In this document: piece after piece, positions 14,792 to 19,297 of the stretch | How the letters are laid out: each line of letters opens with the position of its first letter | Position numbering within the stretch: position 1 is the stretch's first letter | NCBI RefSeq assembly: GCF_000165485.1 | Contig: NC_014623.1 | Span: 887,501-951,500 of the forward strand | Direction of reading: 5' to 3' | Source of the DNA: Stigmatella aurantiaca DW4/3-1 | Lineage (GTDB): Bacteria > Myxococcota > Myxococcia > Myxococcales > Myxococcaceae | Length of the DNA stretch: 64,000 nt | The notes under the pieces: generated by a model | The model's database searches: none | Told to the model about the DNA's origin: nothing | The model's input: the letters and a program-made list of their open reading frames with translations, nothing else | Made by a program: the position numbers and the translations under genes

Positions 14792-14827
14792 GGCTCACTG
14801 TCCCCTCCTGGGTTCACGGAGGTGGGT

Positions 14828-17800
14828 GTGGTGCGCGTGATTGGGTGGATGGCAGTTATCCTGCTTTGCTGTGCGGCCGGAACGGTGAAAGCAGATGAGC
14901 CAGGGAATGCACGGCTGTTGGAGGCACAGACGGCATATGACGAGGCGGTGAAGCTCTTCGAGGCCGGCAAGTACGCCGATGCCCTTGAGCGGAGCAAGCA
15001 TTCCCTCTTGTTACGGGAGGCGGAACTGGGGGGCGCACATCCAGACGTCGCCAAGTGCGTGGCCTTGCTCGGAATTCTTCACTGGACTCAGGGAGACTAT
15101 GTCCAGGCCGAGCCGCTGATTCAACGCGGGCTTGAGATCCGGGAGGCGGCCCTCGGCAAGAACCATCCGGACGTTGCCTCCTCGCTCAACAACCTCGCCA
15201 ACCTCTACATGAATCAGGGGTTGTTCGCCCGGGCCGAATCGCTTCACGAGCGTGCAATCGCCATTCGGGAGGAGGCCCTCGGCAAGAACCATCCGGACGT
15301 CGCCTCCTCGCTCAACAACCTCGCCAACCTCTACAGGGCTCAGGGGTTGTACGGCCGGGCCGAGCCGCTCTTCCAGAGGTCGATCGCCATCAAGGAAGCA
15401 GCCTTCGGCAAGAACCATCCCAAAGTCGCCAGCTCGCTCAACAACCTCGCCAACATCTACATGAATCTGGAGTTGTACGCCCGGGCCGAGCCGCTCTACG
15501 CGCGCGCTCTCGCCATCTGGGAGGAAGCTTTCGGCAAGAGTCATCCCAACGTCGCCACCTCGCTCCACAACCTCGCCAATCTCTATACGAACCAGGGATT
15601 GCATGGCCGGGCCGAGCCGCTCTACCTGCGCGCGCTCGCCATTTTGGAAGAGGTTCTTGGCAAGAACCATCCGGACGTTGCCCTGTCGCTCCGGAACCTC
15701 GCCGTGCTCTACAGCCGGCAGGGCTTGTACAGCCGGGCCGAGACGCTCTCCCTGCGCGCGCTCGCCATCTGGGAGGAGGCCCTTGGCAAGGATCATCCCA
15801 GCGTTGCCCTCGCGCTTTACAACCTCGCCAACATCTACGTCGATCAGGGGTTGTATGGCCGGGCCAAACCCCTCTCCCTGCGCGCGCTCGCCATCCGGGA
15901 GACGGCCCTCGGCAAGAACCATCGCGAAGTTGCCCTATCGCTCAGCAGCCTCGCCAAGCTCTACGTGGACCAGGGGCTGTACCGCCAGGCCGAGCCCCTC
16001 TATCAGCGCGCGCTCGCCATTCAGGAGGCCCTCGGAAAAGACCATCTCGACATCTCCGATTCACTCAACAAGCTCGCGCATCTCTACACGGAGCAGGGGT
16101 TATACGGCCGGGCCGAGCCGCTCTATGCGCGCGCGCTCGCGGTCCGGGAGATGGCCCTTGGCACCCATCACCCCGAAGTCGCCCAAATCCTCAACGACTT
16201 CGCCCGGCTCCGCCTCGCCCAGCATCGCCTCTCCAGTGCCCTGCCACTCTTCACACGCGCCTTCGTCATTTCCGAGCAACGCCTGCGCCAGGAGGCGCTC
16301 GACTTCTCCGAATCGCGCCTGTCCAGCTTCCTCCAGCATCTGCGCGAGGACGAGCAGGCACTCTACTCGCTGCTGCGCGCGCACCCCGAGGACGCCCGCG
16401 TGCGGCACCTGGCCCTGAGCGCCGTGCTCCTGCTCAAGGGCCGCTCCGTCGAGGAGACGGCCGACATCTCCCGCACCTTCTACCGGAGCCCAGACGCCGG
16501 GGACCGAGACACCTTCGAGCAGTTGCGAAGCCTGCGCACCCAACTGGCCACTCTGTCGCTCGCGGGACTTGGCGTGCTCACCCCGGCGGACTACCAACAG
16601 CGCCTCAAATCGCTGGCCGACGAGGGCGAGGCGCTCGAAGCGGACCTGGCCAAGCGCTCCGCCTCGCTGCGTGCGCTCACCGCCCGGCCGCCTCCCTCCG
16701 AGATCGTCGGCCGCGTCGCCGCCTCCCTTCCCAAGGATGGCGCCCTCGTGGAGTTCATCGCCTATGAGGACAGTCCTCTCATCCCCAAATCCGGCACACC
16801 CCTCGCGAAACGGGCCCGTCCGCTGCGCTACCTGGCGTTGGTGCTCTTCCCCGATGCCTCCACTCGCGCCGTGGACCTGGGACTGGCCACGCCCATCGAT
16901 CTGGCCGCCGCGCGCCTGCGCACCGCCCTGGCCAATCGCGATGTCTCCTTCCAAGCCATGGCCCAGGATTTCCACCGGCTCGCCTTCCAGCCCCTGCGCC
17001 CCTTGCTGGGAACCACCCGCCGTCTCTTCCTCTCTCCCGATGGCCAGGTGGGCCTCGTTCCTTTCTCCGCCCTTCACGATGGCCGCGGTTTCCTGCAGGA
17101 CGCTTTCAACTTCAGCTACCTCACTTCGGGCAGGGAGCTGCTGCCGCGCCCCCAGGAGATCGCCCCTTCCACCTCCGTCTTCGTCCTCGCGGACCCGGAC
17201 TTCACCGCCGTCCCCCCCGCCTCGGATCCCTCCCTCCAGCGGACCGAGTCCTCCGGCGCCCTGGAGCGTTTTTTCTCCACCCCGCGAGCGGATGTCCCCA
17301 GCAGCGCGTGGGTGCCCCTGCCGGGGACGCGTCAGGAGGCCCAGAGCATTCAGCGCCTGCTGCCCCAGGCCCAGCTCTTCCTCGGTCCCGAGGCCACCAA
17401 GGAGCGGCTGCTCCGCCTGGTCTCCCCGGGCATCCTCCACCTGGCCACCCATGGCTTTTTCCTTGAGGACACCTCCGCCCCAGCGGGCGCTCGCGCCGTG
17501 GGCCATTTCGGTGCCCTCGGCGAGGACCCCCTGGCTCCCCGCCTCCAGGAGCCCCTGCTGCGCTCTGGCCTCGCTCTGGCGGGCGCTCGCGCGCAGGCGG
17601 CGGACACCTCCGCGCCTTCCGCGTCCCAGCCCGGCGCAGCCCTCGTCACGGCGTTGGAGTTGGCTGGGCTCGACCTGTGGGGGACCCAACTCGTCGTCCT
17701 CTCCGCCTGCGACACCGGGCGCGGCGACGTGAAGCTGGGCCAGGGGGTCTACGGCCTGCGCCGCTCCCTGGTGGTGGCTGGAGCCGAAACCGTGATCATG

Positions 17801-18022
17801 AGCCTGTGGAAGGTCAGCGATGACTCCACCCAGATGCTCATGGAGACCTACTACCGCAATCTCCTGGCGGGCCAGGGCCGTGCCTCCGCCCTGCGCGAGG
17901 CCATGATCGCGTTTCGCGCTTCCCGGCCCCATCCTCACGATTGGGCCCCGTTCGTCGCGCTGGGGAGCGATGCGCCCTTGCGTTCCATCACCCCCACCGC
18001 GCCTTCGGCACCGGAACACTAG
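14828..18022 (+). CDS. Exported TPR-CHAT domain protein (caspase-like fold)
   Basis: About 1064 residues. I place the start at GTG 14828, 5 nt after GGAGG; GTG 14822 and 14831 are also possible. After a signal peptide come about ten 42-residue kinesin-light-chain-type tetratricopeptide repeats (LGKNHPDVASSLNNLANLY pattern), also visible as 126-bp repeats in the DNA from about 15090 to 16200. The C-terminal CHAT domain keeps the dyad: His875 (HLATHGFF) and Cys961 (LSACDTG), in numbering from 14828. The TPRs should bind a partner or repress the protease. The signal peptide implies action in the periplasm or outside the cell. The substrate is unknown. Confidence 0.88.
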   Translation: MVRVIGWMAVILLCCAAGTVKADEPGNARLLEAQTAYDEAVKLFEAGKYADALERSKHSLLLREAELGGAHPDVAKCVALLGILHWTQGDYVQAEPLIQRGLEIREAALGKNHPDVASSLNNLANLYMNQGLFARAESLHERAIAIREEALGKNHPDVASSLNNLANLYRAQGLYGRAEPLFQRSIAIKEAAFGKNHPKVASSLNNLANIYMNLELYARAEPLYARALAIWEEAFGKSHPNVATSLHNLANLYTNQGLHGRAEPLYLRALAILEEVLGKNHPDVALSLRNLAVLYSRQGLYSRAETLSLRALAIWEEALGKDHPSVALALYNLANIYVDQGLYGRAKPLSLRALAIRETALGKNHREVALSLSSLAKLYVDQGLYRQAEPLYQRALAIQEALGKDHLDISDSLNKLAHLYTEQGLYGRAEPLYARALAVREMALGTHHPEVAQILNDFARLRLAQHRLSSALPLFTRAFVISEQRLRQEALDFSESRLSSFLQHLREDEQALYSLLRAHPEDARVRHLALSAVLLLKGRSVEETADISRTFYRSPDAGDRDTFEQLRSLRTQLATLSLAGLGVLTPADYQQRLKSLADEGEALEADLAKRSASLRALTARPPPSEIVGRVAASLPKDGALVEFIAYEDSPLIPKSGTPLAKRARPLRYLALVLFPDASTRAVDLGLATPIDLAAARLRTALANRDVSFQAMAQDFHRLAFQPLRPLLGTTRRLFLSPDGQVGLVPFSALHDGRGFLQDAFNFSYLTSGRELLPRPQEIAPSTSVFVLADPDFTAVPPASDPSLQRTESSGALERFFSTPRADVPSSAWVPLPGTRQEAQSIQRLLPQAQLFLGPEATKERLLRLVSPGILHLATHGFFLEDTSAPAGARAVGHFGALGEDPLAPRLQEPLLRSGLALAGARAQAADTSAPSASQPGAALVTALELAGLDLWGTQLVVLSACDTGRGDVKLGQGVYGLRRSLVVAGAETVIMSLWKVSDDSTQMLMETYYRNLLAGQGRASALREAMIAFRASRPHPHDWAPFVALGSDAPLRSITPTAPSAPEH

Positions 18023-18059: not shown

Positions 18060-18416
18060 GGCCGGGCGGCGCTGGAGGCTGTGGCCGCTGACTTGCCGAT
18101 CAACTCGAACTCCGCCAAGGACGTGGGCGCGTTGATATCACCCGAGCCACAGGTGGTCGGGGAGGGGCCCATGTTGAAATCCAGGGTGGCTCCGTTGGCG
18201 AGGGTGGCGTGGGGCAAGAAGCTCCGCGAACAAGCCTGCCCGTTGATGGTCACGCTCTGGATGTATTTGTTCGTATCGCTGACGTTCGGGGTGTTGATGA
18301 CGATGTTCCGGCCATTCTCCAGGTGAACCGTCATCTTCGTGAAGAAGGGCGCGCCAATCGCATACTCGGGCCTGCCCACGCTGACCGGGTAGAAGCCCAT
18401 CGTGCTGAAGAGGTAC

Positions 18417-18665
18417 TAGGGCACCGATCGATCGGTTTGGGTTTCAGTGGTTTCAGGTGCTTGGCCGCAGAAAACCCGTTGGCAATGCGACCGGCTGGAC
18501 AGGACCCGGGGCGACAGCCCGTGTCGGCCGGAAGTTGGCCGAACCTGTCGGACAGCCCTACAGGTTCGGCCCGAGCGCGCTGACAGGGTGCCTTGAAGCA
18601 GGTCCAGTGCCAGTGGGTTCTGCTCAAAGTGGAATACCCTGAATTTCAAACGATTCGGTGCCCTA
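18417..18665. mobile_element. MITE-like element with inverted ends and TA flanks, inside the GH92 pseudogene
   Basis: The 245 bp from 18419 to 18663 begin GGGCACCGA and end TCGGTGCCC, an exact inverted repeat, and the similarity continues more loosely inwards (TCGGTTTGGGTTTCAG against ATCGTTTGAAATTCAG). Both ends are flanked by TA (18417-18418 and 18664-18665), the target duplication of the IS630/Tc1-mariner group. No transposase is encoded. Its base use differs from the flanking coding DNA. Joining the flanks at one TA gives the continuous reading LDAL-YLFSTMGFYPV on the minus strand, so the insertion site is in frame, although sequence normally lying between these two parts of GH92 has also been lost. 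Confidence 0.7.
18539..18569. repeat. Internal inverted repeat of the MITE-like element
   Basis: A perfect 10-bp inverted repeat, CCGAACCTGT with ACAGGTTCGG and an 11-nt loop, sits in the centre of the 245-bp element. It could form a hairpin in DNA or RNA. Confidence 0.7.
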
Positions 18666-19297
18666 CAGGGCATCGAGCTTGTTGGCCAGCGCGCTCTTTC
18701 CCGGGTAGAGGTTGGCCAGGGCCTGGCCGTCGTGGGGCACGAGCGTGCTGTCATGCCAGGCATTGCCTTCGGTGAAGCCGCATCCCCAGGTGTTCGGCTT
18801 GAAGTTGGCATCCGGGACGAACCAGGAGCCATCCGATTTCCGGGCCCGGAAGAAACCCACCGAGGGGGAGAAGAGGTGGACGTAGTTCAGCGAGCGGTTG
18901 AGCAGGTATTGCGCCTCGTGGGTCCTGCCCAACTCCTGGGTCATCTGGGAGATGGCGAAGTCATGGAGCGGCTCATGCCCTGGCGGCCCCGGTCCGAGCC
19001 GCTGCTGTAGCGCATCATCGAGTCATAGGCCGCCGGGACGTCGAAGTTGCGCACGCCCTTCAGGTAGGCATCGGCGATGAGCGCATCCGAGCTGGTCCCC
19101 ACCATGCTGTTGGCATAGGCCGGTGCGGACCATTGGAGCCGAGCTCCTGCGCCAGGTTGGACTGGGCTTGCGCCACGCTGATGAACGAGGTGGCGAAGGA
19201 CAATCCCACCTTCTCGGCAGGAGCGTGTGGGCTTGTATTGGTTTTCTCGTCTTCATCTGGAACGGGCCTTTCTGGAGCCGATGGGTGGGGCCAGAGG

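Follow-up and report, generated by a model that had tools for sequence, protein, structure and literature searches.

The miniature element at positions 18417-18665

The window, a stretch of 64,000 nucleotides from contig NC_014623.1 of Stigmatella aurantiaca DW4/3-1, contains a short element that stands within the remains of a GH92 gene (Table 1). This pseudogene adjoins a gene for a TPR-CHAT protein (14822-18022). The inverted ends of the element, TAGGGCACCGA and TCGGTGCCCTA, are exact over 11 bp including the terminal TA and imperfect further inward, as the first-pass annotation, made from the sequence alone, had described. The internal palindrome, given there as 10 bp, is larger, with arms of 15 nt each (18537-18551 and 18557-18571) that are 93% complementary. 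The length of 245 bp holds for the element without its terminal TAs, whereas the copy measures 249 bp with them. Complete sister copies are 245 bp long, and compared with these the window copy carries four additional bases near its left end.

Inverted repeats of 11 bp at such spacing occur three times in the window, against a mean of 3.1 in 40 dinucleotide shuffles; one has TA ends, compared with none in the 40 shuffles. Because the 11-bp inverted repeat alone is thus within chance, the element is established by its further copies and not by its ends. It is too short (245-249 bp) for a transposase, an argument from length. In an Rfam scan of 18300-18800, the sole match up to an E value of 1 was Virus-PTE at 19 bits (gathering score 80), taken as a chance match. 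The element is short, lacks a transposase gene, is present in multiple copies at different places and has terminal inverted repeats, and is thus a miniature element of the MITE type.

Table 1. Features of the MITE, its surroundings and its further copies. Positions are those of the window, except for the three sister copies, which are placed on contig C1 of the S. aurantiaca DW4/3-1 genome (G000).
Feature	Position	Strand	Description
Whole MITE copy	18417..18665	+	249 bp with terminal TAs; G000:C1:905917-906165
Left terminal inverted repeat	18417..18427	+	11 bp exact, TA included
Right terminal inverted repeat	18655..18665	-	11 bp exact, TA included
Central palindrome at hairpin tip	18537..18571	.	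Fits palindrome found at at least 57 places in own genome
Right arm	18598..18665	-	Interpreted as originating from an IS1182-family IS (its transposase-3' end); tested on the same arm of sister L003
Left target tetranucleotide CTAG	18416..18419	.	CCAG at this point in L181 (relative without element)
Right junction CTAC	18663..18666	.	Sole non-CTAG among 22 right junctions; abuts GH92 sequence 249 bp further on in L181
GH92 pseudogene around MITE	18116..19215	-	Pieces match L181 residues 669-768, 483-597, 387-452 and 248-274, in different frames
Copy L002	C1:9082467-9082712	-	Complete, 245 bp, 97% identical to window copy
Copy L003	C1:2519601-2519846	+	Complete, 245 bp, 97% identical to window copy
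Copy L004	C1:8672289-8672497	+	Right end missing, 92% identical to window copy

Copies in the genome and in related genomes

The genome itself (one contig of 10,260,756 bp) contains four copies, namely the window copy, two further complete copies (L002 and L003, 99% identical to each other) and one lacking the right end (L004). In a search of seven genomes of the genus (E ≤ 0.001), four gave a match to the MITE, and copies reaching at least one terminus were identified in G000 (four) and G005 (three). The three relatives in G005 (G005a-c) have diverged, with identities of 73, 78 and 69%, respectively (range 69-78%). The remaining matches in the genus are short: those in G006 and the extra ones in G000 and G005 correspond to the inner palindrome, and two in G001 to the right end only. 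No MITE copies were added by a search of 96 family genomes (E ≤ 1e-8, with at most eight candidates per genome scored), in which the match in G006 was limited to the palindrome part. The proposal of a miniature element without transposase is thus borne out by four places in its own genome and three in G005, with no room for a transposase, and the search for further copies that had been suggested as a check yielded three more in the genome and three relatives in G005.

Junction sequences

The junctions of 27 elements or single ends, hand-picked from the examined loci, were tabulated in locus orientation. CTAG was found at 24 of the 26 left junctions, the exceptions (G005c and L068) being TTAG, and at 20 of the 22 right junctions as computed. 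The right junction of G005a reads CTCTAG, its coordinate having been set one base late, and 21 of the 22 right junctions are therefore CTAG when it is read by eye. Both sides carry CTAG in two of the three complete MITE copies of the genome and in 15 of the 16 IS elements with both ends in the junction table. TA flanks had been assigned to the window copy; TA is indeed present at both termini, but the flanking tetranucleotides are CTAG (left) and CTAC (right). Left out of the table were L037/L069 (GTAG), L031 (TATG), L112 and L113 (no end found) and L117 (the same element as L202). Twelve further ends in family genomes, outside the table, are all CTAG (L075-L078, L081, L083, L085, L088, L091, L092, L095 and L098), and no end was seen at eight further family loci (L074, L080, L082, L084, L086, L094, L096 and L099); the other end matches with four mismatches in that scan were taken as chance. 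The tetranucleotide is strongly avoided in the window, with 9 occurrences versus 79 expected from dinucleotide shuffles.

Copy L003 (L145 from 1602; G000:C1:2519601 onward) adjoins the left end of a broken IS1182 copy, with one CTAG common to both. Its left flank is a repeated sequence, with a piece of a Y2_Tnp transposase upstream (L145 13-675). Homologues of this flank, nine stretches in 8 examined of about 100 listed places, read CTGG (five), CTTG (three) and CTGA (one), an indication that at least CT comes from the target and not from the element. An exact empty site with a single CTAG was found neither in L181 (CCAG), the relative without the element, nor among these nine stretches. For copy L002, the alignment with a relative in G001 stops 63 bp short of the element.

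Relationship of the ends to IS1182-family insertion sequences

The right-end pattern (up to three mismatches) was found at 11 places in four of the seven genus genomes. These comprise MITE copies (three in G000 and three in G005) and the ends of transposase remnants L027/L068 (G001), L036/L066 (own genome) and L029/L067 (G004), as well as L031 and L037. Remnant L068 retains both ends, 751 bp apart, and contains a DUF772 stretch (PF05598) and a C-terminal piece; remnant L067, the other of the two remnant pieces scanned, gave no Pfam match. Used as a query, the C-terminal piece of L068 matched in 19 of 76 family genomes, and no intact IS of this subtype was found in the 76 genomes.

All three transposases of intact relatives tested (540, 610 and 540 aa) scored above the NCBIfam IS1182 cut-off (345-355 versus 270 bits). 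The genome contains 28 matches to this model, of which six are complete IS copies with a pair of MITE-like ends, each with CTAG on both sides. Four of the other 22 matches represent two further elements above the cut-off that lack such ends (L206/L211 and L207/L210), L208 and L212 lie beside one MITE-like end, L209 and L213 beside a doubtful match and the rest beside none. L206/L211 (G000:C1:428177-429508) and L207/L210 (3464259-3465590) are IS1182-type transposase genes of another kind.

The element had previously been assigned to the IS630 type, i.e. to MITEs of the IS630/Tc1-mariner kind that duplicate TA upon insertion. TA does stand at both termini, and the seven genus genomes contain 28 IS630-type transposase loci (DDE_3). 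However, MITE-like ends in an inverted pair were seen at none of these 28 loci, so that the full-length IS630-like relative with the same ends, which had been proposed as a check, was not found; eight have single matches only, with 4-6 mismatches, and two of these matches (L058 and L063) are letter for letter IS1182 left ends read elsewhere. The junctions conserve CTAG rather than TA, and such ends flank IS1182 transposases. The matching ends are those of the IS1182 family, and an IS630-type origin is extremely improbable.

The MITE and the IS elements have their terminal 22 bp or so in common, L003 being identical to 13 IS ends at 13-19 of 22 positions. The cut for the left end of G005a lies one base late, and with two additional bases at the terminus its 22-bp identities (4-9) are out of register. 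The inner arms (positions 23-68, inside the inverted repeat) were compared separately, in 78 comparisons with 300 shuffles each. The right arm of L003 scored 13 against the right ends of both L068 and L066 (0/300 shuffles as good in each case) and 8 against that of L067 (2/300), and did not match remnant L109 (183/300). The right arm of G005a behaved similarly, scoring 13 against L067 (0/300) and 10 against both L068 (1/300) and L066 (2/300), with a weaker match to L109 (22/300); that of G005c was weak against the remnants throughout (11-46/300). The left arms of G005a and G005c matched the left end of L068 with scores of 15 and 9 (1/300 and 2/300), respectively, and its right end more poorly (73/300 and 39/300). 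The left arm of L003 did not match the left end of L068 inside the inverted repeat (195/300) and matched the right end of L068 weakly (7/300). The inner arms of the MITE thus fit the remnant subtype (L068, L066 and L067), not the intact IS elements L100, L105 and L101. We read these comparisons together as the trace of an L068-type IS that would have lost its interior long ago, its left arm having since diverged in the G000 branch.

The GH92 gene and the loss of 249 bp

The closest relative of the GH92 pseudogene is L181 of G001, with 88-92% DNA identity and a match to the end of the neighbouring gene beside it. The L181 gene is intact (917 aa, Glyco_hydro_92 at 1.6e-154). Elsewhere, the S. 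aurantiaca genome has a GH92-like frame that is open over 918 aa (L183, G000:C1:5808000-5811200). In comparison with L181, 249 bp (83 codons) are absent from the window gene at precisely the place taken by the MITE, and further gaps of about 95, 350 and 700 bp lie elsewhere. In the homologs L183 (G000), L184 (G001) and L185 (G003), about 260 bp occupy the MITE position. L181 reads TACCAGG at the left junction versus TACTAGG in the window, and at the right junction the MITE terminus meets ACAGGGC, which lies 249 bp further on in L181. The last 13 or so residues of the piece matching 483-597 run into the MITE.

It had been claimed that the GH92 reading frame runs on uninterrupted once the flanks are joined. 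Three joins were tried: the one-TA join is in frame but contains a stop (LDAL*YLFSTM), and the other two shift the frame. With 249 bp absent as well, the claim is not confirmed. The comparison with a site lacking the element was possible in part, in that L181 is intact, but it has CCAG at this point and the window gene lacks 249 bp in addition. Its sequence shows the host GH92 gene to be a pseudogene with several deletions.

One explanation for the missing 249 bp is that the MITE replaced a stem-loop in the target, as IS1272 of the IS1182 family is reported to do, replacing inverted repeats or stem-loops without target duplication (PMC5678879). A stretch is indeed replaced exactly here. On the other hand, none of the six inverted pairs in the 249-bp stretch of L181 joins its ends at this site, the nearest having arms at 837-849 and 1030-1042, and the targets given for IS1272 are 21-85 bp long, compared with 249 bp. 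Moreover, the CTAG on both sides of two of the three complete MITE copies and of 15 of the 16 IS elements is as expected of a duplicated target. Replacement of a stem-loop is therefore quite improbable.

A deletion that ends at the terminus of an element is the usual look of adjacent deletions made by a transposase. On thin evidence, this being one case among several deletions in a dying gene, the 249-bp loss in the window may have arisen by such an adjacent deletion.

Hairpin structure and the dispersed palindrome

When folded, the window copy forms a single end-to-end hairpin (RNA, -132.7 kcal/mol and z = -7.35; DNA, z = -6.73); another RNA run (60 shuffles) yielded z = -6.0. The RNA z scores of the sister copies in the genome are -11.2 (L002), -8.7 (L003) and -2.6 (L004, which has foreign sequence at its cut end), and those of the G005 copies are -3.6 (G005a), -1.0 (G005b, partial) and -6.2 (G005c, whose best fold is branched and not end to end). 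As a control, the joined ends of five IS elements gave z = -1.2 to -2.3 for four and -5.3 for L106.

Covariation was analysed in seven aligned copies with the L002 structure as reference, a choice that favours this structure. In this alignment 86.1% of the cells pair; shuffles gave 84.9% (8/500 as high) and slid versions 29-46%. Eight pairs are changed on both sides versus 6.7 in shuffles (175/500 as high), as are 12 cells versus 8.0 (32/500); further pair types number 42 versus 43.7 (434/500), the covariation score is 0.144 versus 0.131 (35/500) and the covariation term of RNAalifold is unfavourable (+3.12). The hairpin is present in the sequence; its support from covariation is weak and falls short of showing selection on it.

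These data bear on the idea that the element is essentially a hairpin whose secondary structure is maintained, the IS-like ends serving as its vehicle. The end-to-end folds of the window copy, L002 and L003, the proportion of pairing cells and the fit of the centre to a dispersed palindrome speak for this; against it stand the numbers of changed cells, changed pairs and pair types and the RNAalifold term, the poorer folds of G005a and G005b, the branched fold of G005c, the z score reached by the joined ends of L106 alone and the choice of reference. We regard a maintained hairpin as unlikely.

The dispersed palindrome, GAACCTGT-N11-ACAGGTTC, lies at 18541-18567 within the MITE centre. It was searched for with up to two mismatches and with the reversed pattern as a control; many places match on both strands, and the MITE copies are included in the counts. 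The genome gave 52 forward and 57 reverse matches (control 1/1), i.e. at least 57 places, and G006 gave 62 and 63 (control 2/1), i.e. at least 63 places. There were 12 and 9 matches in G004, 10 and 9 in G005 (control 0/0 each) and 2 and 0 in G001 (control 1/0); G002 and G003 gave none. The same central palindrome also lies in another dispersed repeat, about 160 bp long, which was judged by eye to have other, imperfect inverted ends. It was seen at six places in the genome (L119, L124, L128, L132, L139 and L142, around position 1500), and its inverted ends are clearest in L119 (CTCCCGCAC..GTGTGG / CCACAC..GTGCGGGAG).

Dispersed palindromes are also formed by REP/REPIN elements, which are associated with RAYT. 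The MITE resembles these in the dispersed palindrome at its centre and differs in its IS1182-like ends. None of the seven genus genomes has a match to Y1_Tnp (PF01797), whereas 5 of 14 control genomes were positive, and a REP/REPIN system with RAYT was rejected on this ground.

A speculative reading, which we consider possible but rather doubtful, is that GAACCTGT-N11-ACAGGTTC is a hairpin module spreading by riding in unrelated miniature elements. It takes up the presence of the palindrome in an IS1182-type MITE, in the other repeat (about 160 bp) and at numerous additional sites, together with the lack of a detected RAYT in the genus genomes. If true, this would make the module a hairpin, either selfish or functional, whose movement depends on the transposases of other elements.

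Comparison with known elements

MITEs linked to IS1182-family elements are already in print. MITEPye1 of Paracoccus yeei (PMC11578231) is described as a 159-bp element with 18-bp inverted repeats and 4-bp direct repeats, present in 1-3 copies per chromosome. Compared by description, the present MITE is similar in lacking a transposase and in having IS1182-like inverted ends and a predicted stem-loop fold, and differs in length, in its inverted repeats and in its host, MITEPye1 being found in other bacteria. Two MITEs linked to ISMac2 (IS1182) of Methanosarcina acetivorans (PMC3852290) are 160 and 169 bp long, one apparently with a 4-bp direct repeat. The likeness, again by description, is the link to an IS1182-family IS; the ISMac2 MITEs reside in an archaeal host in 14 and 7 copies and have inverted repeats of 26 and 25 bp. 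A repeat of apparently 4 bp is also given for ISPse1 (IS1182) in PMC3281130.

Within the genus, the MITE shares termini of the form TAGRRCACSGA.. and CTAG junctions with the IS1182 elements L100 and L105 (own genome) and L101 (G001), whereas these are 1722-1755 bp long with transposase frames of 540-610 aa. No report of a myxobacterial MITE was found in the literature searched by title and start of abstract.

Origin and implications

The element is present in several copies, its ends are common to IS1182 remnants and intact IS1182 elements and CTAG stands at nearly all listed junctions. We consider it highly probable (approximately 0.92) that the MITE arose from an IS1182-family IS by internal deletion and was moved in trans into CTAG or near-CTAG sites with a 4-bp duplication. 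Counting against this origin are the poor fits of the L003 left arm and the G005c right arm and those of the right arms to L109, the lack of an intact IS of the remnant subtype in the 76 family genomes, the absence of an exact single-CTAG empty site among L181 and the nine stretches examined, and the TTAG left junctions of G005c and L068. According to this model, the internal deletion would have left a MITE without transposase that kept the terminal sequences, predicted to be the binding sites for an IS1182 transposase. Such a transposase, putatively the one responsible, would then move the MITE in trans into CTAG or a near-CTAG site, generating the duplication. The window copy would have entered a near-CTAG site of the GH92 gene, and an adjacent deletion may then have removed 249 bp up to the right terminus, the right CTAG included. 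No use of the MITE to the cell is indicated.

The myxobacterial mobilome thereby gains a MITE with identified kin, its assignment moving from IS630 to IS1182. The common central palindrome points to a larger population of dispersed hairpins. In the family, this IS group usually has CTAG at its junctions, which would provide a precise and testable target rule where the tetranucleotide is scarce.
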